Source: Rouxiella badensis
Lineage (GTDB): Bacteria; Pseudomonadota; Gammaproteobacteria; Enterobacterales; Enterobacteriaceae
Direction: 5' to 3'
Length of the DNA stretch: 62,007 bases
Assembly: GCF_002093665.1 (NCBI RefSeq)
Contig: NZ_MRWE01000033.1
Coordinates: forward strand, 1-62,007
This document shows positions 38,651-62,007 of the stretch, in pieces. The notes beneath the pieces are model-generated. The model was not told the DNA's origin. It made no database searches and worked only from the letters and a program-made list of their open reading frames with translations. A program made the translations under genes and the position numbers. How positions within the stretch are numbered: position 1 is the stretch's first letter; each line of letters starts with the position of its first letter.

Positions 38651-41600
38651 ATGCCGCCGACTAATCAGGCTATTTGTAGCAGTACCGCGCCCCAGCATGT
38701 ACCCCATTTGACTGAAAGCACGGCTAGCCCGGGAATAGCATCACGCTGCGTCGAGTGGGCCCGCAATACCGCGCTGTTACCCACATCCTTTTCTTGTCCC
38801 CCTTCATTGAGTGCACTCGCCTGGAGAATGGGTGATGGAGCTTTCAGGCTCGCCGTTTCCTTTTTGCGTCAGTTTGAGCAGCGCACTGAGTGGCAAGATT
38901 GCGCAGAAATGGACGCGGTCGAACATCCGCTTCTCGCCAGTCTCAACCATTTTCTTTGGCAGCAGGGCTATGGACTCCCGGCGCTACCTTTATTGGGCCC
39001 GGCAACGGCCTTTTGTAGCGTTTACTACGCCGCCAGTCTGGCATTGGGCCATGCCGCTATGGCAGAAAATGACGACGTTTTTCATCAAACATTGGCGGCT
39101 TATCTGGCGGGCGCGTGCGGATTGTCCTGCGACGTCTTTGCCACCTCCAGCGACAGGCAAACGCCAACCTGGGAAAGTGATTGCTCTATTTTAGAAACAG
39201 ATCTGGAAGCAGGCAGCTCTTTTGACGAAATTCATTTGTTGGGCCTGCCCGCCACTGAGCCACTTTATGGTGCTACCGGCAGCCGCAGATATACCCTGGA
39301 TCCCGCTTCATCTGCACTGTTTATCGGCCAGGTCCGCACCTCACCAATGAATTTTTGCTCTGCGCAGATACCGCTAAATCAGACCTCGATAGCGAGTGGG
39401 TTAGCGGGAGTGCAAATGGCGGTGCACTTAGCCGAGCAGCAAAATCGGGCAATTTATGCCATCAGTACCGGCGAGCATGCGGTGGCGGTAGATACCAGTC
39501 CGCTGGCCGCGTCGGTGTTGTCCCTGCCGTCGTTCGGACTCAGCGATCCACTGGTGTTTCCCACCGCGCAATCGGCCGAAATTAGCGTTAACTTACCGCC
39601 GTGGCGGCAGCTAGAGGGGCATTCAACGAGCAAAACTGTGCATAAAAGAGGCGTGATCCACGATGGCCCGCTAGCGCTGATGAAAGGGCGGTATAAGGAA
39701 CCGTCGGGCTTTTTGCCGAGGCCTAACGCGCCTGCTCAACAGGAGCCCTCGCAGGCGAGTGTGCGTGAAGCACAGCTTTATGGGCTGAAGATTAACGCCG
39801 AAGATGGGCGACGTTATCCGCTGTTTGCGCCGCCGACCTCACAGATTGATTGCCTCAGTTGCCTTCCTGAGCCGTTGCCGCCGGTAAAAGCTCGCAGTCT
39901 GCTTGAGATGATAGAAAAGGTCTATTTCTGGGTCGAAGGCCTGAGTTCCCAGAGTAAACAGCGGGTCATTGAGCAATATATTCATCGTAAACCCGCTGCG
40001 GTTAGCAGTGATAGCCATAACAAAGCCCTGGAGGCCATTGTGGCTGCATGCGGTCTGCTGATGATCCACGATCCCACCCACGACAGGTGGCACAGCTCTT
40101 CTGCAGAGGTACAGACGCTCTTTTCTCTGCTGCTGATGCAGTCGCCGTTTGCTCATAACGAAGAATTAAAAATAGTGCTGGCGGCGTCTCCCGCCGGAGA
40201 GGCAATATTGGCAAAACTGCTACTCGACCAGCTGGATGCTTATCTTTCGCCGTCCTCTCAATTAATTAAAGCCAGTCATCAGCACGTCAGGGGGGTGATG
40301 ACGCAGCCTGAGCCGGTGACCTATGGCCGATTGGAGGCCTGTTTAAAGGACATTCAGGACGCGTTTATCACGCGCGTCTTTTCGTCGCTGAAGGGGACGC
40401 TGGGCTTACAGCAGGATGACCTGTCGGCGGAAAAAGTCAGCAAAATTGCGCAGTGGCATCTAAGACTGATTGAATTTGACTATCCTTTCATGCTGTTGCG
40501 TGACTTAACGCCCGTAAAAGGAATGCCCTGCTTGTCGAGCACCGGTCTGCTGATGAATATCGGCGTCAGGCGGGTTCAGGATAGGCAGAAAATGAGTATG
40601 CTGACGCCACGCGATCTAACCTCTCTGGGGGAAGACCTGCTTCTGAATAACGTTCCCGAGGCGTTGATCAGGGATTTCAGCCATCTTGAGGCGTTGCACA
40701 AAGCGGCGGGAGCGGGGACGATGAGCGGGATTGAGGACGCCGCGAATAAACTGAAGCGCAAGAGCGTACTGTTGATTCAATATAGCGAAGCCAAACGTAG
40801 GCTGACGGAGGTGCTTAAGGCTCCGGGCGAGGATGCACCGAGCATTGCGGCCTTTAAATATTATCGTGATACCCAGCAGCGACTTTACGCACTGGCGCTG
40901 GAAAGTATTTCCGGGGTAGACCGGGCCAGGATGCTGGTTAACTTGCATCGTATGCATGGGATAACGCTGCAGTTTATCCAAATGGAAGACACGCAGGGAA
41001 ATTCGTCGCTTTCACGTCCCCATATCGGATTTCTACTTTCCTCTGAAGGGAATATCAACCGTGCTGGTACGCAGGTCGAACCGCGTCACTACTTTATCTC
41101 TCTGATCCCGGCACAGAGCGATACAACACAGCCGCTGGTATTTCCTGTTCATTCAACCTTGCCCGACGAGCTACTCCAGCCTTTTAGTACTCAGGGAAAG
41201 AAGGAGTTTCTTGCACGTCTGTTTGACGATGCAACGGTCAATGATTCGCGCTATCAGTTTTATCTCCAGAATGAAGGCAGTCTGCATTCTGCCGTTCAAA
41301 TAACGGACTGGAGAAACGTGGCCGATTCGCTGGCAAATAGCATCATTGCCCGCCAGTACTCGGCCATTGCTATGCCTGCCATTGCCCCGATGCGTCATGC
41401 CGTTGTCACTGAATCCTCTGAAAGTCAGGGCCCCGTTTCTTCATGGTTTCGCTATTTATTGAGCCAATTGATTTACCTGACCCCGATTGGCAACTGCAAA
41501 GACGCTGCCGAAGATTTGATAAAGGCAGATTTAGCGCCGTTGGTGCTCGATGGGGCTTTTTGCCTCTATGCCTTTGCCCCTGGCGCCAGCGAAGAGGAGC

Positions 41601-44218
41601 AGGGGATCAAGTCAGTCGCCAACATCATCAAGAATGTGTTGAAAAAGACGCTGGAAGATAATATTGCCGTCAGCGAGCAAGAGCCGGTACTCACCCGGTT
41701 GGACAAGACCCTCCAGGAGGTCGAATGCCAGCTGAAGCCGCATAATCAGGCCATTGACCGGGTACGTTACCACCTTAGTGGTAATAGAGGATTACGCCCT
41801 TGGCTCCTCTTTTCAGCCCTAAACAATGCGCTGGTGATTGGTGAAATTCCTGATGAATATAAACCCACTCTGGCCTGGCGCGAACCTTTTCACGATGTGC
41901 TCTATTTCATCCTTGCGACGCCTGGTGGGCAACGGGCCTACCGCTTTGATGAGCTTAATCAACTGCTGTTGCCTAATCCGAGCTCATCGTTGCTGACGCT
42001 GATGGCCCGAGAGGCGCATATTGACGCTCTGCCTGTGCTGGAAGAAACGCTCAGCACGGGTAATACGCATCGGTTAAGAACAGAAATCTATCAGCATGAG
42101 AGAATGCGTCATGTTGCGTACTACGGCGTATGCAACTGCGAGACGCTAGACTCTCAATATGAGGTGGTTGCTCAACAGACCGCCTTAGGAACCTATTTTT
42201 TCCCGGGGATAAAAGTACCCGCAACCGACAACCAGTACCGGCTTGTTCCATCAGGAATGCCTGAAGATCAACAGCTGGTGGTCGAGAAAAATAACGGAAT
42301 ACTCCGTTATTTGAGTGACAACGTGATCTATTTTAAGACCTCGTCTACCGCCTCACAGTTTATTGCTTCATCAGATGCCGCCGAGAATTTATTGAACAAT
42401 CTGCAAAATATTCCTAACGGCTGGACCATGAAGGCGCTGTGGATAGAGCAGGGGGCGGGGGAGAGAATCGTGGTCGACTGGCAGGATACAGCAGGCAATT
42501 CACATCTACGTCACCCGGACAGGCAGGGGAAATGGCTAATCTGGGAAAGTCATCATCGCGGTATCTTTTGTCAACATTTATCGAGAGTAAGACGAAATGA
42601 TAGCCCTGACACTTCACGTGTTGCCGGGCTTTTCTCTCCGGAGCACTGCGGCTATTTAGAAGTACCTAAAATAAACAGCCCCGGGCGCGCCGCAGCGCTT
42701 AATGTATTAACCCAGCGTGCTAAAAAACTTGCGGGACCGATTGTTTTCGAGAAAATCAACTGTGCCGATTTAGCCAAAAATATTTGTGCAGAGTTTGAGG
42801 ATATCTGGGACACGATTCCTGACAGTATTCGTAAAGTTATTACGGATATTCGCGACTGGCGGATAGATGTGAAAGTGTTTAACGAGTTTGGCCGTTTTAC
42901 CAACGCCCTTGCTGATTATTCCTATGCCTTAAATAACGTAGAACCATTGACTCATGACGATAAACGAGTCAAAAACCGATTCTGCCAAAAAGTATTAAAC
43001 TTAATCAAAGAATATGAAAAGCTGAAGCTTAGCGTGCTGGAAAGTAAAAGGCTGAAAGAAGAGTTTCGAGACGCTAAAAAAGATTACTACGATACCTACA
43101 TTGCAAGAAACCTGAAGGCCAACAACTGGCTTAATCGCTGGTTTCAACGCGTCAAGTTTACCGATAAAACCTTGGGAAACTATATCGTTAAGGCAACGAC
43201 TCCAGAGCAGATCGTGCGCGATTATGAATTTCTCTATCAGGGGATTCAGGGAGCCATGACGCAACTTAATCACATGGCTGAATCCATCTCGGCACGTTTA
43301 AGTGAATCGTCAGCCGCTGGCTTCCTGAGTGGTGCATTGAAGGACTTTTTTAACGCCGATTTCACGCCGCCTCAGGTTGATGATTTTAGGGAGAAAATAT
43401 CTCGTTATCTGCATAAAATCGGCGGCTTTAACATCAGTCAGGTTGTGGTTGTCGCCGACAGATTGTCTGAGGGGCGACTCGCATCAGGCTGCTACGATAC
43501 GCCGATTGAAAAGCTAATTTATGGCGACGGTGCTTTCAGCTTCGTTTATAACAGCGAGAGCGATAAACATATTTATATACTGGATTATTTATCTAACCAG
43601 CAGTTTATTGAATATGCCCTAGCGCACGAACTTGGCCATTTGACCTTCGATGAGAGTAAGTATGCTTTTTCGGAGGAGATATATCTGAAGGCGAACACAG
43701 TTGTTAAAAACTTTAATGTTTCTGGCGCGTCAAAATTTGCCCGTCACCTGATGTCTGACAAGGGCTTTTTCCTCGACTATATCGCCAAGTACGACAGTTT
43801 TGGTGCCGCCTTCTATCGCCATTTTTTTGCTCATACCCGTAATCCCCATCATAGACGCGCACTGCGCAATTATCATGCTCTCTTTTTGGATAGAAGCAGT
43901 ATCGGGTCGCTGTACTCCAACGATGCTAAACTCAGGAAACGTGAGCTGGCTCCGGTGGTGGACTACTTTTTTTCGGTACCCGACATACAACTGAATATTG
44001 CCTACTATAACCCGGACATTTTTTGTGGTTTATTTAACTTTATCTATGAAAGAGCCCTCGGAATCGTCAATCAGGAGGCAGAAGAGAGGCGTCGTAAAAA
44101 GCGCCAAAGTGGGGAATCGTCTAAACAAGATAACAAGGAATTTTTTAAAACGTTGTTATTTTCGGCACTGTACGAAAAACATCTTCAGGACAATGACGCA
44201 CATTTAGCACATCAATGA
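38651..44218 (+). CDS. Giant protein of 1855 residues with C-terminal HELGH metalloprotease motif; possible toxin or effector
   Basis: I do not recognise the family. There is no signal peptide and no clear run of membrane helices, only one moderately hydrophobic stretch (about residues 933-948 and just after). A proline-rich linker near residue 350 separates an N-terminal domain that contains small-residue-rich helices. A charged, coiled-coil-like region covers about 1450-1485. The zinc-protease motif HELGH is at 1659-1663, followed by acidic residues (E1675/E1676 or D1667/E1668 as possible third ligands) and a histidine-rich patch (RHFFAHTRNPHHRR). The tail is strongly basic (RRRKKRQSG near 1815). 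Size, soluble character and a late catalytic motif recall large bacterial toxins or effectors, but no secretion genes are adjacent. GGGAGGGGAG precedes the ATG. A LysR gene is divergent. Confidence 0.85.
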   Translation: MPPTNQAICSSTAPQHVPHLTESTASPGIASRCVEWARNTALLPTSFSCPPSLSALAWRMGDGAFRLAVSFLRQFEQRTEWQDCAEMDAVEHPLLASLNHFLWQQGYGLPALPLLGPATAFCSVYYAASLALGHAAMAENDDVFHQTLAAYLAGACGLSCDVFATSSDRQTPTWESDCSILETDLEAGSSFDEIHLLGLPATEPLYGATGSRRYTLDPASSALFIGQVRTSPMNFCSAQIPLNQTSIASGLAGVQMAVHLAEQQNRAIYAISTGEHAVAVDTSPLAASVLSLPSFGLSDPLVFPTAQSAEISVNLPPWRQLEGHSTSKTVHKRGVIHDGPLALMKGRYKEPSGFLPRPNAPAQQEPSQASVREAQLYGLKINAEDGRRYPLFAPPTSQIDCLSCLPEPLPPVKARSLLEMIEKVYFWVEGLSSQSKQRVIEQYIHRKPAAVSSDSHNKALEAIVAACGLLMIHDPTHDRWHSSSAEVQTLFSLLLMQSPFAHNEELKIVLAASPAGEAILAKLLLDQLDAYLSPSSQLIKASHQHVRGVMTQPEPVTYGRLEACLKDIQDAFITRVFSSLKGTLGLQQDDLSAEKVSKIAQWHLRLIEFDYPFMLLRDLTPVKGMPCLSSTGLLMNIGVRRVQDRQKMSMLTPRDLTSLGEDLLLNNVPEALIRDFSHLEALHKAAGAGTMSGIEDAANKLKRKSVLLIQYSEAKRRLTEVLKAPGEDAPSIAAFKYYRDTQQRLYALALESISGVDRARMLVNLHRMHGITLQFIQMEDTQGNSSLSRPHIGFLLSSEGNINRAGTQVEPRHYFISLIPAQSDTTQPLVFPVHSTLPDELLQPFSTQGKKEFLARLFDDATVNDSRYQFYLQNEGSLHSAVQITDWRNVADSLANSIIARQYSAIAMPAIAPMRHAVVTESSESQGPVSSWFRYLLSQLIYLTPIGNCKDAAEDLIKADLAPLVLDGAFCLYAFAPGASEEEQGIKSVANIIKNVLKKTLEDNIAVSEQEPVLTRLDKTLQEVECQLKPHNQAIDRVRYHLSGNRGLRPWLLFSALNNALVIGEIPDEYKPTLAWREPFHDVLYFILATPGGQRAYRFDELNQLLLPNPSSSLLTLMAREAHIDALPVLEETLSTGNTHRLRTEIYQHERMRHVAYYGVCNCETLDSQYEVVAQQTALGTYFFPGIKVPATDNQYRLVPSGMPEDQQLVVEKNNGILRYLSDNVIYFKTSSTASQFIASSDAAENLLNNLQNIPNGWTMKALWIEQGAGERIVVDWQDTAGNSHLRHPDRQGKWLIWESHHRGIFCQHLSRVRRNDSPDTSRVAGLFSPEHCGYLEVPKINSPGRAAALNVLTQRAKKLAGPIVFEKINCADLAKNICAEFEDIWDTIPDSIRKVITDIRDWRIDVKVFNEFGRFTNALADYSYALNNVEPLTHDDKRVKNRFCQKVLNLIKEYEKLKLSVLESKRLKEEFRDAKKDYYDTYIARNLKANNWLNRWFQRVKFTDKTLGNYIVKATTPEQIVRDYEFLYQGIQGAMTQLNHMAESISARLSESSAAGFLSGALKDFFNADFTPPQVDDFREKISRYLHKIGGFNISQVVVVADRLSEGRLASGCYDTPIEKLIYGDGAFSFVYNSESDKHIYILDYLSNQQFIEYALAHELGHLTFDESKYAFSEEIYLKANTVVKNFNVSGASKFARHLMSDKGFFLDYIAKYDSFGAAFYRHFFAHTRNPHHRRALRNYHALFLDRSSIGSLYSNDAKLRKRELAPVVDYFFSVPDIQLNIAYYNPDIFCGLFNFIYERALGIVNQEAEERRRKKRQSGESSKQDNKEFFKTLLFSALYEKHLQDNDAHLAHQ

Positions 44219-56320: not shown

Positions 56321-57832
56321 ATGATCAACTTATCGATTCCGAAGACTCTCGACAGTAAATCGCACGGCTCATTGCAGTCGAAGCTGCGTGAGAAGATTTC
56401 CGAAGCCATCGCCTGCGGGGACTTCGAAGAGGGACAGACGCTGCCCGCGACCCGCACCATGGCCGAGCAGCTGAAGATTTCCCGCAATACGGTCACGCTG
56501 GTGTATGAGGAGCTGGCGGCGGAGGGCATCCTGATTTCGGCGCAGCGACGCGGATTTTACGTCGCGCCAGATGCGATGTCTCGCCTGCCGCAGAGTCGTC
56601 CGATGGCTCAAAGCCCTGCCAGCGTCGACTGGGACAGCAAACTGGTGATTAATCCTGCCGAGATGGAGCACATTACTCATCCGCACGACTGGCGCACCAA
56701 GAAATACACCTTTATGTATGGGCAGCACGACCGATGGATTTTTCCGATCTCCAGCTGGCGTAAATGCAGCCGCGATTCGCTCTCGTTGCACGATATGTAC
56801 GACTGGACCGTGGATTATGTTGATGAAGATGATCCCGTGTTGCTCGACGCGTTTCGTCGGCGGGTCTTGCCGCGTCGCGGGTTCAGTGCCGGTACTCAGG
56901 AAGTGCTGGTCACCGTCGGGGCTCAGCATGCGCTGTTTCTGGCGATTCAGTGCCTTATCCGCCCCGGCATGGTGGTAGGCATTGAGGATCCTTCGTATCC
57001 CGATGTGCGTAACTTGATGATTTTCCACGGTGCGGTGCTGAGGCCGCTGCCAGTGGATGAAGACGGACTGATTATCAGCGAGGCGCTACGCGGCTGCGAT
57101 ATTCTGTATGTCACGCCGAGCCATCAGTCACCGACCACCGTGACGTTGTCACCAAGCCGTCGTCGCCAGCTGCTGCAAATGGCTAAAGACTACGACTTTA
57201 TTATTATTGAAGACGACTACGACACCGAGTCGCGCTTCGGCAGATACCCGTCCAGCGCGCTAAAGTCTATCGACACAGACGGACGCGTGGTCTACGTCAC
57301 CAGCCTGTCAAAGCTGCTTTCACCGGGACTTCGGGTGGGGTTTTTGGTCGGTCCGGCGCCGTTCATTCGCCAGGCTCGTGCACTACGGCGCATGAGCATT
57401 CGCCACCCTGCGGCCAATAATCAGCGCACCATCGCGCTGTTTCTTAAAGGCGGTTATTACGAGTCGTTGCTCAAGCGCTTTCACGAGGAGTATGCATTGA
57501 GGTGGCGTACTTTGCAGGAAGCGCTGCGCCAGTTTATCCCCTGTGCCGAGGTGGCTAACTCAGAAGGCGGCAGCTCCGTATGGCTGCGCCTGCCTGCCGA
57601 GATAAACACCCGTGAACTCTCAAAGCGTGCCTATGCGCGCGACGTTTACATTCAGCCGGGCGAGAGCTATTTTCTGCCGCTTTCCAACTCGACCCAGACG
57701 AGGCCAACAAACTATATGCGCATCGGTTTTTCGTCGATCAAAGTCGAGGATATTGCCGAGGGTATTGCCATTGTGGGCGGCGTGGTGGATGAAATGCTCT
57801 CGCGCGAAACCAGAAAAAGAGTGGGCGAATGA
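56321..57832 (+). CDS. MocR-type regulator (GntR helix-turn-helix fused to aminotransferase fold)
   Basis: Predicted PLP-responsive transcription regulator of 503 residues. The N-terminal GntR winged helix covers about residues 10-85 (LREKISEAIACGDFEEGQ, TRTMAEQLKISRNTVTLVYE). A class I aminotransferase-like domain follows, with the PLP lysine K331 in VTSLSKLLSPGLRVGF and EDDYDTESR before it. Such proteins usually regulate the neighbouring catabolic operon in response to a PLP-linked amino compound. Its location directly after hyuB suggests that it controls GNAT-hyuAB, although it is at the 3' end of the same transcript direction. Confidence 0.88.
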   Translation: MINLSIPKTLDSKSHGSLQSKLREKISEAIACGDFEEGQTLPATRTMAEQLKISRNTVTLVYEELAAEGILISAQRRGFYVAPDAMSRLPQSRPMAQSPASVDWDSKLVINPAEMEHITHPHDWRTKKYTFMYGQHDRWIFPISSWRKCSRDSLSLHDMYDWTVDYVDEDDPVLLDAFRRRVLPRRGFSAGTQEVLVTVGAQHALFLAIQCLIRPGMVVGIEDPSYPDVRNLMIFHGAVLRPLPVDEDGLIISEALRGCDILYVTPSHQSPTTVTLSPSRRRQLLQMAKDYDFIIIEDDYDTESRFGRYPSSALKSIDTDGRVVYVTSLSKLLSPGLRVGFLVGPAPFIRQARALRRMSIRHPAANNQRTIALFLKGGYYESLLKRFHEEYALRWRTLQEALRQFIPCAEVANSEGGSSVWLRLPAEINTRELSKRAYARDVYIQPGESYFLPLSNSTQTRPTNYMRIGFSSIKVEDIAEGIAIVGGVVDEMLSRETRKRVGE

Positions 57833-57843
57833 GGGGGTAGACG

Positions 57844-58113
57844 GTGGCTAATCAACAGCGGCTGATTGCCGAGCCGGGTGATGCGGTGTTTGTGACTACG
57901 GGAACCGTCCATGGTTACCCGTTGAACTTTCACTTCACGCGTTTTATCGGCTTCCTGCCGGCCACGGTAGTCGAAAACTTCTTCCGTGTGCTGGGTGGCC
58001 CCTGGGCTGAACCGGTATTTCCGCACCGCCCGGGCGAACTGCATGTCGAACGGGTGATGGCTAAACTCGACCCGCTCGACCTTCATCTCTGCGGCGAGCG
58101 TCCGCAGCGTTAG
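57844..58113 (+). pseudogene. Truncated cupin (C-terminal remnant)
   Basis: 89 codons from a GTG start. GDAVFVTTGTVHGYPLNFHF and TRFIGFLPATVVENFFRVLG resemble the second half of quercetin-dioxygenase-like cupin proteins, including one histidine of the metal site (TVHG). The first cupin motif, with the remaining metal ligands, is missing. A stop codon lies in frame just two codons upstream (57838), so the 5' part has been lost. It may still be translated behind GAGGGGG, but a working enzyme is unlikely. It converges on the exporter gene with a four-base overlap. Confidence 0.6.
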
Positions 58114-60212
58114 CTTCCCAGCACAATCACGCGGTCAGCGGAGGCTATTGTTGAAGGACGGTGTGCGATGATGACACGCGTAACCTTTAGCGCAGCAATC
58201 GAGGCATTAATGTGTGCCTCGTTTTCAACGTCAAGATGGCTGGTGGCCTCGTCGAGGAACAGAATGCTCGGTCGGCGGTACAGCGCACGCGCAATCAGCA
58301 GGCGCTGTTTCTGGCCACCGGACAGACTGCCGCCCAGTTCACTTATCAGTGTTTCATAACCCATCGGCATCGCCATGATATCGTTATGAATATTACAGCG
58401 CTTGGCGCAGTCGATCAGGTGTTCGGGATCGTTCTGTTCTTCAAAGCTGGCGATGTTCTCTGCGATGGAACCGGCGAACAGCGTATCGTCCTGTAATACG
58501 CAGGCGATGCAGGCGCGGTAATTGTTGACGCCGGCCTTGCTGATGTCTATCCCGTTGAGGCGCACCTCGCCCGAGGTTGGCAGCAGCAGCCCGGAAAGCA
58601 GCTTCATCAGCGTGGTTTTTCCCATGCCCGAAGGGCCGGTTATCGCCACACTTTCACCTGCCGCGACGTTAAGAGTGAGCTCTTTAATCAGCGGCGCGGA
58701 CAGCACGTCATACTGGAAGGAGACATTGTGTACCTCCAGCGCGGCGGGCTCTCCCTGGCGTAGCAGGGCGCGCTCGGTAACGTAATGTTCCTCGTCGGTA
58801 AGGGCAATATCGGCGATACGCTCAGAGTGTAGAGACAGCATCCGCAGCTGCAACACCATGTTCAGCAGGTTCGCCGCTCTTTCCGAAAACTGTCCGCGAT
58901 AAGTGTTAAAAGCCACAAACATACCCAGCGTCATGTGGCCATCAATCACCTGATTCGCTCCCAGCCACAGCAGAACAATCTGGTCGAGGGTGGCTATCAG
59001 AGTGTTGCCACCCTGGAACATCATCTCGTAACGCGTCTTACGCACGGTCGCGTTAGCGGTGTCGATATTCATATTCAGCCAGCGCTGCGCACGATTGGAG
59101 GACAGGCCAAGCGCCTTCAGCGTGCCCATGCCGTACAGCGTTTCCATAAAGTGCGAGCTGGCGCGTGCGGTCTTCACCAACTGCTCCTCGGAAATCTGCC
59201 GATAGGTGGAGTAGGTACTGAGTCGGAACAGGCAGTAAAGGGTGGTGAATCCGAGGATAACCCACACCAGCCAACCGCCGTAAAGGATCATCATCACTAT
59301 CAAACCCACCGACATGATGCCGTCCATCAGGCTGTTCACTACGTTCGAGGTCAGCGTGCTGCGCAAGGTGTCGAGCGAAACGAAGCGGGACTGAATGTCA
59401 CCGAGTTTGCGTTTCTCGAAATAGGCCAGCGGCAGGGCGAGCAGGTGGTCAAACAGCCGGGCCTTCCACTGAACGTCAATTAGCGTGGTCATCACCAGCT
59501 GGGTCCAGGATTTAAGGACGCTGATGCCGGTTCGAAACAGCACGAAGAACAGCAGGCCCAGGCAAATGAGCGTGAGCAGATTGGCGTCCTGCGCCGGAAT
59601 AACGTGGTCCATGACCAGCTGCATGCCGACCGGCAGAAGCAAATTCACCGACTCTATCAGCAGCGAGAAACAGAACAGCTTAGTGAGGGTGCCGACGATG
59701 CCGCTGACGTTACTGGCCATACGACGCAGGTTGAGGCGGTTAACGTTTTTGGTGTGGCTAAAGTCGGCATCGGGCCAGACTTCGAGCGCGATGCCGGTGA
59801 AGTGGGCCGACAATTCCTGCAATCCCAGCACGCGTTTGCCGAAACCGGGATCGTGGATAACGATGCGACCACGTTTGACCGAGATAAGCACCACAAAATG
59901 GTTCATATCCCAGTGCAGAATACAGGGCGTTTTCAGCTCGGTGAGTTCGTCGAGGTCCAGGCGCAGCGCGCGTGACTTCAGATTCAGCTGCTGGGTCACG
60001 CTCATTAACGTTTTCAGGGTCACGCCGCGCGTCGAAACATCAAACTGCTGGCGCAGGCTCAGCAGATCGGTTTGCATGCCATAATATCCGCAAATCATCG
60101 CCACACAGGCCAGACCGCACTCTGCGGCCTCGGTCTGGATTATCTGTGGCACTCGGCGGCGGAAGCTAAAATGTAACTTTTGTACGAGTTCGTCCAACGG
60201 CTCTGTGTTCAT
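58110..60212 (-). CDS. C39-peptidase ABC exporter for double-glycine peptides (CvaB-like)
   Basis: Inner-membrane exporter of 700 residues that cuts the leader of a double-glycine peptide and moves it out. The N-terminal C39 peptidase has catalytic C32 (AECGLAC), H105 (DMNHFVVL) and D121 (IHDPGFG). Six membrane segments occupy about residues 160-440. The ATPase has Walker A GPSGMGKTT, signature LSGGQKQRL and Walker B ILFLDEATSHLD. It overlaps the HlyD gene by four bases and is last in the operon. It should work with the HlyD protein and a TolC channel encoded elsewhere. Family and architecture match CvaB/MchF of the microcin V type. Confidence 0.9.
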   Translation of the reverse strand: MNTEPLDELVQKLHFSFRRRVPQIIQTEAAECGLACVAMICGYYGMQTDLLSLRQQFDVSTRGVTLKTLMSVTQQLNLKSRALRLDLDELTELKTPCILHWDMNHFVVLISVKRGRIVIHDPGFGKRVLGLQELSAHFTGIALEVWPDADFSHTKNVNRLNLRRMASNVSGIVGTLTKLFCFSLLIESVNLLLPVGMQLVMDHVIPAQDANLLTLICLGLLFFVLFRTGISVLKSWTQLVMTTLIDVQWKARLFDHLLALPLAYFEKRKLGDIQSRFVSLDTLRSTLTSNVVNSLMDGIMSVGLIVMMILYGGWLVWVILGFTTLYCLFRLSTYSTYRQISEEQLVKTARASSHFMETLYGMGTLKALGLSSNRAQRWLNMNIDTANATVRKTRYEMMFQGGNTLIATLDQIVLLWLGANQVIDGHMTLGMFVAFNTYRGQFSERAANLLNMVLQLRMLSLHSERIADIALTDEEHYVTERALLRQGEPAALEVHNVSFQYDVLSAPLIKELTLNVAAGESVAITGPSGMGKTTLMKLLSGLLLPTSGEVRLNGIDISKAGVNNYRACIACVLQDDTLFAGSIAENIASFEEQNDPEHLIDCAKRCNIHNDIMAMPMGYETLISELGGSLSGGQKQRLLIARALYRRPSILFLDEATSHLDVENEAHINASIAALKVTRVIIAHRPSTIASADRVIVLGS

Positions 60213-61495
60213 TCAACCGGTCCTGTAATGCTTTTCTTCAGGCTGTAGTATGGGGAGAGCATCCATTGATACAGCGGGCGTTTTTCGAGAAACAGGGTGG
60301 TTTCAGCCTGCATTCCGCTCGACAAGGCTAAAGGTTGGCCGTGCCAGGAGAGCGTGCCTCGCTTCAGAGCGACGATGGCCTTGAAATAGCTGCCGTCGAC
60401 GGCGCCGGTGCTCATGCGCGGCGCGCTAACGTAGCCCGACATCTCTTTTGGCGTGCTAGGGGCGCTGGCAACCGAAATTATCGTGCCGGGAAATTGGCCA
60501 TATTTCTGGAAAGGGAATGCGGCATAACTGACATTTATGGTCTCACCCAACTTGACGTAAGGACGACTGGCATCCGGCACCCAGGCGACCAGATAAAACG
60601 CATGCTCGCTGTCTGGCACCAGCTGTACCAGACTATCCCCGGTATTAACCATCTGGCCGGGAGTCACGCTCAGTGACGAGATATTTCCCGCCGTGGGGGC
60701 GGTGATCATAATCAGATTTCGGGCATTAGCCTCTGCCAGTTCGCGATCCAGACCTTGTTGCTGGTAGATTGATTGGGAAATCTGATTGTCAAACTCTGCG
60801 GCCTTAGTCACTTTCTGGCTCTGCAAATTGCTGATTTGCAGAGACTGCTGGACCACCTGCGCGGTGAGATTCTGATAGGAACTCTGCTGCTGGTAATACA
60901 AGTAACGCTGGTTGTTCAGCTGATCGGAGGTGATTAACCCTTTCTTCAAGGAATCATTATAAGAGGCAAGGCTTTTTCCCATCGACTCCAGGCCGTCTTT
61001 TGCGGAAGCGAGCATTTTATTCAGGCCAATCTGCGCCTGCTGATATTGTTCGAGCTGCTGCTGCAGGTTGGCTAAGGTGGCAGCCTTATTGCTGCGCTGC
61101 TGGGCCACAATATCTTCGAGCTGCTGTTTCTGCTTATAAATAGCGTCCAGGGTGGAGGTGCTGACATTGCCCGACTGGCTAATCTGGCTGACGTCTATTT
61201 GATACAGCGACTCACCGGCTTTTACACGTTGACCGTTTTTAACCAGCAGCTTCGAAATAACGCCCTGCTGGGGAGAAAAAAGGTTAATGGTATACGGCTG
61301 AGTAATCACTTCAGCGCTGACGTTTATTCGACGGGTATAGTTGGCAAAGATCAGAAATAGCAGAAGTAAAACCATGAATAGGCTGGTCAGGGAGACGGTA
61401 ATCCATAGCGGCCAGCCTTTAAGCAATAGCGCCTTGCCAAGCCACTGAGTCTGCTGCTGAGTGGCGACTTCCTTACGGAAAAGTGCGGACATCAA
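60209..61495 (-). CDS. HlyD family adaptor for peptide export (CvaA-like)
   Basis: Membrane fusion protein of 428 residues. One N-terminal membrane helix (about 29-52) follows a short cytoplasmic tail. A lipoyl-type half (VISKLLVKNGQRVKAG), a long glutamine-rich alpha-helical hairpin (about 115-250) and the second lipoyl half and beta barrel (ITAPTAGNISSLSVTPGQMV) follow. It bridges the ABC exporter and TolC. The stop overlaps the exporter start (ATGA). A hairpin lies upstream, between it and the peptide gene. Confidence 0.88.
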   Translation of the reverse strand: MMSALFRKEVATQQQTQWLGKALLLKGWPLWITVSLTSLFMVLLLLFLIFANYTRRINVSAEVITQPYTINLFSPQQGVISKLLVKNGQRVKAGESLYQIDVSQISQSGNVSTSTLDAIYKQKQQLEDIVAQQRSNKAATLANLQQQLEQYQQAQIGLNKMLASAKDGLESMGKSLASYNDSLKKGLITSDQLNNQRYLYYQQQSSYQNLTAQVVQQSLQISNLQSQKVTKAAEFDNQISQSIYQQQGLDRELAEANARNLIMITAPTAGNISSLSVTPGQMVNTGDSLVQLVPDSEHAFYLVAWVPDASRPYVKLGETINVSYAAFPFQKYGQFPGTIISVASAPSTPKEMSGYVSAPRMSTGAVDGSYFKAIVALKRGTLSWHGQPLALSSGMQAETTLFLEKRPLYQWMLSPYYSLKKSITGPVE

Positions 61496-61521
61496 AATAC
61501 TCTGTCAGAGGGCTTATAAAA

Positions 61522-61547
61522 CCACCTATAGCCTGAACTATAGGTGG
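61522..61547 (-). terminator. Hairpin between peptide precursor and export genes
   Basis: CCACCTATAG and its exact complement CTATAGGTGG enclose six bases. Read on the minus strand the stem is followed by TTTTATAA. It is probably a partial terminator that makes precursor mRNA more abundant than exporter mRNA. Confidence 0.65.
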
Positions 61548-61625
61548 AGAATGTTACACGCTGGCCATGCTAAAGAGGACTGATGATTGACCAGTATGTG
61601 ACATGAATATAATAGGTTATGGATT

Positions 61626-61844
61626 TTATACCAGAGCTTCTAACGCGCCAGTCACACCCAGTGCGTTCAGTGCGCCGGTCACACCGGTGCCTACATTATC
61701 AAGTACGTCAGGAACGGTTGTGGTTACAACGGTTGATACGGTATTCAGAGCAACACCCACGGTATCGGCAACGTTAGAAATCAGGCTCGACAACAAACCG
61801 CCACCGGCAACTTGTTCAACTTCGATAGTGTTTAATTCTTTCAT
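61626..61844 (-). CDS. Class II microcin-like precursor with double-glycine leader
   Basis: 72-residue secreted peptide precursor. The leader MKELNTIEVEQVAGG (1-15) fits the double-glycine rule, with L4, E8 and V12 at -12, -8 and -4 and G14-G15 at the cut site. The mature part would be residues 16-72 (57 residues): rich in V, L, T, G and A, with three D and one E and no K, R, H, C, F, W or Y. It ends with a tandem repeat GVTGALNAL (54-62) and GVTGALEAL (63-71). GGAGG lies five to six bases before the ATG. First gene of an operon with adaptor and C39 exporter, so export by them is very likely. Antibacterial action is inferred from this context. No immunity gene is visible. Confidence 0.82.
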   Translation of the reverse strand: MKELNTIEVEQVAGGGLLSSLISNVADTVGVALNTVSTVVTTTVPDVLDNVGTGVTGALNALGVTGALEALV

Positions 61845-62007
61845 AATAACCTCCGAAATTATTGATAAAAGCTTAATAATGATCGCTGATTTTTTTCAGA
61901 GATACGCCAAGGCATCACCTTGCGATCATGGGTTTACTCTACCCTATCTTATTGAATTTGGCTTATTGTTATGTGAGAAAAGTGTAAAATTTCACATATT
62001 ATATTAA

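Follow-up and report, generated by a model that had tools for sequence, protein, structure and literature searches.

The window, the whole 62,007-nucleotide stretch analysed, is the entire contig C31 and would include that end of a genomic island which carries the exporter, the island making several short amphipathic peptides. The island is best read as encoding secreted, membrane-active, probably antibacterial amphipathic peptides that may do without dedicated immunity, a reading to which we give about an even chance. The window peptide is a member of a new family, and the export machinery beside it is of a well-known type. Its ORF, a HlyD-family ORF and a C39-ABC exporter ORF are consecutive in that order, all on the minus strand, as the original prediction had described. 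Only 163 nt of contig sequence precede the start codon of the peptide. The features are as follows:

61933–61962, minus strand: conserved promoter-like upstream block (putative function), with exact matches across genus genomes
61626–61844, minus strand: gene of the 72-aa double-glycine precursor, with its stop codon; supported by a ribosome site, purifying selection and an ortholog shared by two sister genomes
61800–61844, minus strand: 15-codon leader
61629–61799, minus strand: 57-codon core, with cleavage after GG predicted from the family
61522–61547, minus strand: 11-pair hairpin with a T-rich tail in the peptide–hlyD gap, a candidate attenuator or partial terminator
60209–61495, minus strand: HlyD/CvaA-type membrane fusion protein, 428 aa; TTG start as listed, with an ATG at 61492 equally possible
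58110–60212, minus strand: C39-peptidase ABC exporter (PCAT), 700 aa
59766–60149, minus strand: C39 peptidase domain (aa 22–149; Q26, C32, H105, D121), from Pfam and the CvaB alignment
56321–57832, plus strand: MocR-type regulator bordering the island

The peptide gene is preceded by a GGAGG ribosome site. In its leader, MKELNTIEVEQVAGG, positions −12, −8 and −4 are L, E and V, and GG closes the leader; these positions, pointed out in the original prediction, are invariant (L4, E8, V12, G14 and G15) in an alignment of nine peptides, the window peptide included, and the leader falls within the 15–20 aa of class II double-glycine leaders. Two sister genomes encode an ortholog with 68% identity across 72 residues. 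Compared with the G004 ortholog, the leader shows four synonymous and no replacement changes, and the core has a dN of 0.35 and a dS of 1.1, with synonymous sites near saturation. The orthology, the fixed leader and the purifying selection on the core show that the peptide gene is real. With a dN/dS of about 0.3, the core gives no sign of diversifying selection, an observation counted against an antibacterial reading. The peptide was not recognised in the original prediction, and no Pfam or NCBIfam family was found above cut-off by profile search and no match among 72,556 plasmid records at E values up to 10; Pfam Bacteriocin_IIc (PF10439) scored 11.9 bits with 71 aa of the peptide as query, against a gathering cut-off of 27.1.

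The core has 57 residues, with an average mass of 5451 Da if unmodified, contains no Cys, Lys or Arg, and ends in GALEALV. Its length lies just under the 60–90 aa of ten verified class II members, a range that describes those members in the available text of PMC10233263 and does not define the class. It shows a strong amphipathic-helix periodicity with a V-P break, its helical moment reaching a z of 4.7 versus composition shuffles, and it has no beta signal. The other eight aligned relatives have z values of 2.0–5.8, and 39 ordinary 50-aa segments used as a control gave a mean of 0.14. A 62-aa peptide on contig C54 has little amphipathicity (z 0.9), which was counted against the amphipathic reading. 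The core has neither the Cys-containing nor the Gly/Ser-rich C-terminal part of many microcins, a feature likewise counted against the antibacterial one.

Regarding the export genes, Pfam identified HlyD domains, Peptidase_C39 (1.8e-36), ABC_membrane and ABC_tran. The exporter shares 395 of 700 residues (56%) with CvaB and the adjacent membrane fusion protein, a component expected of class II systems, 167 of 428 with CvaA. Q26, C32, H105 and D121 align at the same numbers as in CvaB, so that the predicted catalytic C/H/D could be located exactly; triad and ABC motifs are intact. The two genes overlap by 4 nt. Annotated plasmid relatives of the exporter include CvaB and MchF, and in a tree without support values it branches apart from the CvaB/MchF group. 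A TolC-family protein is encoded on contig C35 of the same genome (430.8 bits, cut-off 225.15). Predicted export by the microcin V route is well supported because of the 56% identity to CvaB. Plasmid or viral carriage was rejected: the peptide has no plasmid match, and six exporter word patterns, which detect close relatives only, gave no match in viral_contigs.

The upstream block occurs exactly at four places in six genus genomes, always 5′ of such peptide genes. The 130-nt gap between the peptide gene and hlyD, whose fold has a z of −4.2, contains the strong hairpin, of which two pairs, read by eye, are altered on both sides in G004. A genome-wide repeat was considered and discarded, as exact matches occur only beside these peptide genes (contigs C31 and C17 of this genome, and G004); allowing up to one mismatch added a few scattered one-mismatch matches.

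An island lying between the MocR regulator and an aldehyde dehydrogenase (ALDH) probably encodes at least four such peptides, the window peptide among them, and the island of this genome appears to be split over two contigs. The originally proposed peptide-export module is supported, and its peptide does not stand alone: the same genome encodes at least four further full-length GG-leader peptides. The island is present in three of six genus genomes, with an empty site in two, a distribution that fits the expectation for an accessory competition trait. Two sister species lack it, and in G002 and G005 the MocR-type regulator adjoins the ALDH. In G003 a constant leader cassette carries unrelated cores. 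No direct repeats of 8–14 nt were found at the island ends between two segments of 120 and 130 nt (L064).

The class II layout comprises five parts, an adjacent immunity protein included, in the available text of PMC10233263 and PMC9746304. No immunity gene was found next to the precursor, either in the window up to the contig end or at the sister loci, nor an immunity candidate beside any of 14 distinct genus peptides (0 of 14); at the two control loci these criteria did recover the annotated Cvi. The operon can therefore not be called complete, as first proposed, and its resemblance to class II microcins holds for the export module and not for immunity. The microcin label for the peptide is still a guess, because the peptide family is new and no self-protection gene is visible. 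An initial set of 75 cores showed a strong split, cores with immunity genes tending to be non-amphipathic and cores without them amphipathic; the rule was abandoned when held-out loci gave exceptions and significance was lost after redundancy removal.

Several known systems share parts of this architecture. Microcin V (CvaC/CvaA/CvaB/Cvi) and other class II systems have the same 15-aa GG leader, HlyD adaptor, C39 exporter and catalytic residues, whereas the window locus has a short Cys-free core, several peptides and no immunity gene found. Cdz-like bacteriocins are also small hydrophobic GG-leader peptides with a type I exporter, defined in the accessible part of PMC5380434 by 60–151 residues, a leader ending in G[G/A/S] and one or two glycine zippers, and their immunity proteins are called harder to identify there. 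The window peptide agrees in size and leader (72 aa, GG), but its core has no GxxxGxxxG or even GxxxG and no charged or polar C-terminus; membership was rejected for lack of a glycine zipper. Bacteroidetocins, as far as covered in the text seen of PMC6671954, likewise combine GG-leader peptides and a peptidase-ABC exporter, and no immunity protein has been found for them. They are kin to Gram-positive class IIa bacteriocins, and their four-gene region also encodes a TM protein and a thiol oxidoreductase, neither of which is seen beside the window peptide. This precedent fails to explain producer protection, because bacteroidetocin producers inhibit themselves on agar.

By homology, the peptide would be translated with its 15-residue leader. 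The exporter's C39 domain would recognise this leader and cut after GG, and the exporter, HlyD and a chromosomal TolC would secrete the 57-residue core; these predicted cutting and export steps are strongly supported. Outside, the anionic amphipathic-helical core may attack the membranes of other bacteria; it would most likely be a bacteriocin that has no immunity gene of its own, and differences in target or envelope may spare the producer, wholly or in part only. The hairpin 3′ of the peptide gene might yield more peptide mRNA than exporter mRNA.

The peptides may instead be no weapon, but be secreted to serve the community of the producer itself in surface activity, aggregation, autolysis or signalling, which we regard as unlikely though worth weighing. 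The lack of an immunity candidate and the anionic, amphipathic cores agree with it, and the Neisseria Nap island (available text of PMC11798529) also has several GG peptides with a C39 peptidase, the gonococcal ones promoting autolysis with no detectable antimicrobial activity. However, Naps are cationic, and their island has a FapF-like outer-membrane protein and an immunity-like gene, unlike the window locus; competition explains the patchy island, and the G003 leader shared by unrelated cores, better than a conserved signal does. It is improbable that this is a classical class II microcin with an overlooked immunity gene, one too divergent, not membrane-spanning or in the contig-end assembly gap. 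The exporter clearly belongs to the class II microcin family, the contig end is close, and immunity proteins are hard to recognise according to the reviewed part of PMC10233263; yet no candidate adjoins the peptides at the orthologous loci of G003 and G004, and each locus would need protection against six to eight peptides. A relaxed scan around 19 peptide genes in five genus loci, which accepted any start codon on both strands and required no ribosome site, yielded one 61-aa ORF with a TTG start, antisense to the upstream region of a peptide in G004, which differs from the G003 copy by four replacement and two silent codon changes and therefore shows no sign of coding. Decay or silence, suggested by a 23-aa leader-like ORF beside a second exporter on C54 and an in-frame TAG in the G003 copy of hlyD, is very improbable given three open window genes, an exporter dN of 0.058 versus a dS of 1.24, and the conserved ribosome site and upstream block.

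A broader and tentative proposal is that one Enterobacterales "microcin" exporter clade might serve a distinct cargo, immunity-free amphipathic-helix peptides in arrays that keep the leader cassette constant and diversify by core exchange; many loci listed as class II microcins by their exporter would then be a different kind of secreted peptide system. In current genome searches, a GG-leader peptide accompanied by HlyD and a C39 exporter counts as a class II microcin; if a whole exporter clade carries immunity-free peptides of another architecture, such calls would need a second criterion. The presence or absence of the island between sister species, together with a constant leader bearing different cores, provides a natural test of the role of the peptides and of producer survival.

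The three genes of the window's export system lie in order on the minus strand, at the positions given in the original prediction:

61626-61844, minus strand: 72-codon open reading frame (ORF) of the peptide precursor, from ORF reading
60209-61495, minus strand: HlyD-family gene, with Pfam support
58110-60212, minus strand: C39-peptidase ABC exporter gene, with Pfam support

The latter two genes overlap by four bases. The catalytic C/H/D read earlier in the exporter peptidase was confirmed as C32, H105 and D121, which, like Q26, are in register with CvaB, the exporter of microcin V, and the ABC motifs are intact. Identity to CvaB amounts to 395/700 residues, and that of the HlyD-family protein to the adaptor CvaA to 167/428. 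The nearest NCBIfam models of the exporter are peptide exporters, with scores under their cut-offs, and its relatives with solved structure include bacteriocin-type PCATs (4ry2, 8vp3) and ComA. A TolC-family protein over cut-off is encoded on contig C35 of the same genome. The system resembles a class II microcin in that it works like one in export, and export and cleavage of the window peptide are highly probable. Among related loci, the copy of the window hlyD in the genus relative G003 carries an in-frame TAG (L065 13300-13460), and a Photorhabdus exporter ORF is split (L029 6290-6762).

On sequence grounds, the window peptide gene is genuine. An ortholog with 68% identity across 72 residues is present in two sister genomes. 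Between the window and the copy in the relative G004, the leader differs by four synonymous changes and not a single replacement, and the core has a dN of 0.349 and a dS of 1.115; since dN is 0.058 for the exporter and 0.076 for HlyD, the core protein sequence evolves about five to six times faster, with purifying selection retained. A block, GCCAAATTCAATWAGATANNNTARAGTRAA, has exact matches at four places across six genus genomes, upstream of the window peptide, of the first peptide on contig C17 of the same genome, and of the window-peptide orthologs in G003 and G004. No further match was found in these genomes allowing up to three mismatches, and a control pattern gave zero matches. We infer that this block is a promoter; a sigma-70 scan returned 3 sites vs 3.1 in shuffles, none of them at the block. 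A terminator scan was not enriched (4 sites vs 4.5 in shuffles), its strongest site being an 11-pair hairpin at 61522-61547, between the peptide gene and hlyD, in an intergenic stretch with a folding z of -4.2. Two stem pairs are changed on both sides in G004 with pairing preserved, as judged by eye. A hairpin that follows the first C17 peptide (L054 6785-6840) shares the loop motif of the window hairpin only inverted relative to the gene, and quasi-palindrome template switching could produce such an inversion.

Three more double-glycine (GG) peptides of the same kind are encoded at the end of C17, and contig C54 of this genome contains a second exporter pair, its ABC protein 83% identical to the window's, accompanied by a 62-aa peptide and a 23-aa leader-like ORF. 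An island flanked by an aldehyde dehydrogenase (ALDH) and a MocR regulator is present in G003, with eight peptides, and in G004, with six; each has two exporter pairs. These flanking genes are ~0.2 kb apart in G002 and G005; neither flank was found at the thresholds used in G001, which carries a different locus with a single peptide. The window makes up all of contig C31, which ends with MocR-exporter-peptide, and C17 ends with peptides-ALDH, in matching orientations; we therefore infer that C31 and C17 carry opposite ends of a single island split by an assembly gap. An 89-aa ORF (57844-58113, plus strand), in a stretch of G+C 0.61 that separates MocR from the exporter stop, has a weak, partial resemblance to Cupin_2 (Pfam E 0.032, under cut-off) and is possibly a gene remnant at the island edge; the MocR and exporter ORFs of G004 overlap at this position. 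The longest ORF of the window has 1855 codons (38651-44218, plus strand).

Passages of two papers state that class II microcins are expected to have an adjacent immunity protein (PMC9746304, PMC10233263), and one by Cole et al. that perhaps not every one does (PMC9746304). In our scan, an ORF counted as an immunity candidate if it lay within 400 bp on the same strand, had ATG/GTG and a minimal ribosome site, and encoded 40-220 aa that included a predicted membrane segment. The annotated Cvi, the immunity protein of microcin V, was recovered at both colicin V control loci, L117 and L118; at L118 a different 51-aa ORF outscored it, and Cvi shows one segment only. Beside the genus peptides, the scan gave candidates at 0 of 14 distinct peptides, and a relaxed scan of 19 peptide genes in five genus loci returned one ORF only, a 61-aa antisense ORF with TTG in G004 that has no coding signal. 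Because the immunity feature, when tested, was not found, the window system is not filed as a classical class II microcin. The window peptide may about equally well have an antibacterial role or lack one. The Cdz paper reports that many bacteria have GG glycine-zipper systems whose immunity proteins are hard to identify (PMC5380434). A literature search joining Rouxiella and microcin found only a colicin Z paper; supplementary microcin lists, where the window peptide could stand, lay outside the search.

Among 75 hand-curated peptides from 54 loci (loci without a detected peptide excluded; near-identical Rahnella-type loci represented by L066, L080 and L081), a candidate lay on the same strand at 16 vs 6 on the opposite strand. 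In a midpoint-rooted tree of 64 exporters, branch support not considered, the window's group joins Rahnella/Ewingella loci, a Pantoea MAG and LSJC7 group and most glycine-zipper loci, with CvaB apart. Candidates with at least two segments occur at 0/22 loci in this group, two of them (L054, L031) assigned without tree placement, vs 9/32 outside (p 0.007), under a threshold picked after the data were seen and which would miss Cvi at L118; with at least one segment the counts are 3/22 vs 12/32 (p 0.07).

The window core is devoid of Cys, Lys, Arg and GxxxG, and its net charge of -4 is not odd, since most microcins are neutral or anionic according to a passage of PMC10233263. Its mean helical hydrophobic moment lies 4.7 standard deviations over composition shuffles; a beta-strand signal is absent. 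The corresponding z is 2.0 to 5.8 in the other eight aligned relatives, 1.5 to 2.5 in four clade-A cores and only 0.9 in the C54 peptide; 39 ordinary 50-aa background segments averaged 0.14, one HlyD coiled-coil segment reaching 3.3. The word "amphipathic" is absent from PMC13174018, PMC13101503, PMC9746304, PMC11494933 and PMC10233263. Across the 75 cores, median z is -0.2 with an immunity candidate (n=16) vs 3.1 without (n=59; p 1e-4). After removal of redundancy and recoding of four loci (the one-segment candidates of L082, L083, L088 and L039 counted as none, as decided after seeing them), 11 cores with a candidate vs 54 without gave p 7e-6. In cores of at most 80 aa, the difference is significant for the maximum moment (p 0.002) and not for the mean (p 0.23; 0.56 on the Kyte-Doolittle scale). 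All these p values are optimistic because the sets contain related sequences, which are not independent.

A held-out set comprised 60 previously unused loci from 392 family genomes, 95 of them with an exporter at 1e-180; the matches not included were mainly Rahnella-type loci, together with some of the 40-46% group. Without an exporter filter, 39 of the 60 loci yielded 47 peptides, many closely related to the first set: six with at least two segments had a median z of 0.12 vs 2.64 for the 41 others (p 0.007), and at least one segment separated 13 from 34 (p 0.008). For cores unlike the first set and one another, the comparison was not significant with at least two segments (3 vs 18, p 0.31) or at least one (7 vs 14, p 0.40). 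A candidate accompanies a high z at L155 (two segments, z 3.0), at L185, L190 and L192 (one segment, z 1.9-3.1) and, in an exporter-filtered pass that dropped 16/60 loci, at L153 (one segment, z 2.3), and the same pass contains low z without a candidate at L152, L168, L178 and L179. Given these exceptions both ways and the non-significance among non-redundant cores, the split amounts to a trend rather than a rule, and no new class is claimed on it.

By the first exporter of G003 lie three peptides whose 15-aa leaders are identical and whose cores are unrelated. Two units there are 89% identical over 383 bp, a similarity that sets in 328 bp ahead of the ATG and breaks off 10 nt beyond the leader; the first unit shares 60 identical bp with the second, covering the ribosome site and leader. 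G004 has the G003 leader (96.6% across 58 bp) with a fourth core. In these relatives it looks as if cores were replaced behind a conserved leader cassette, which was not observed in the window's own contig. Repeated spacers of the G003 array (L065 5000-6220) include, as judged by eye, what seems to be a decayed 5' end of hlyD and, after it, the 3' end of an old peptide core, possibly a trace of array growth. One divergently oriented GG peptide (MKQLTE.D.EMVNGAG...) is highly conserved in Rahnella, Ewingella, Hafnia and Rouxiella aceris loci (L006-L017, L019, L023, L043, L066, L080, L081), beyond expectation for a bacteriocin.

A profile built from the nine genus peptides had hits in 25 of 198 family genomes at E 0.01; in this draw only its two genus members passed 1e-15, the next best reaching 9e-10. 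On this sampling the peptide family is nearly confined to the genus, and the exporter is common.
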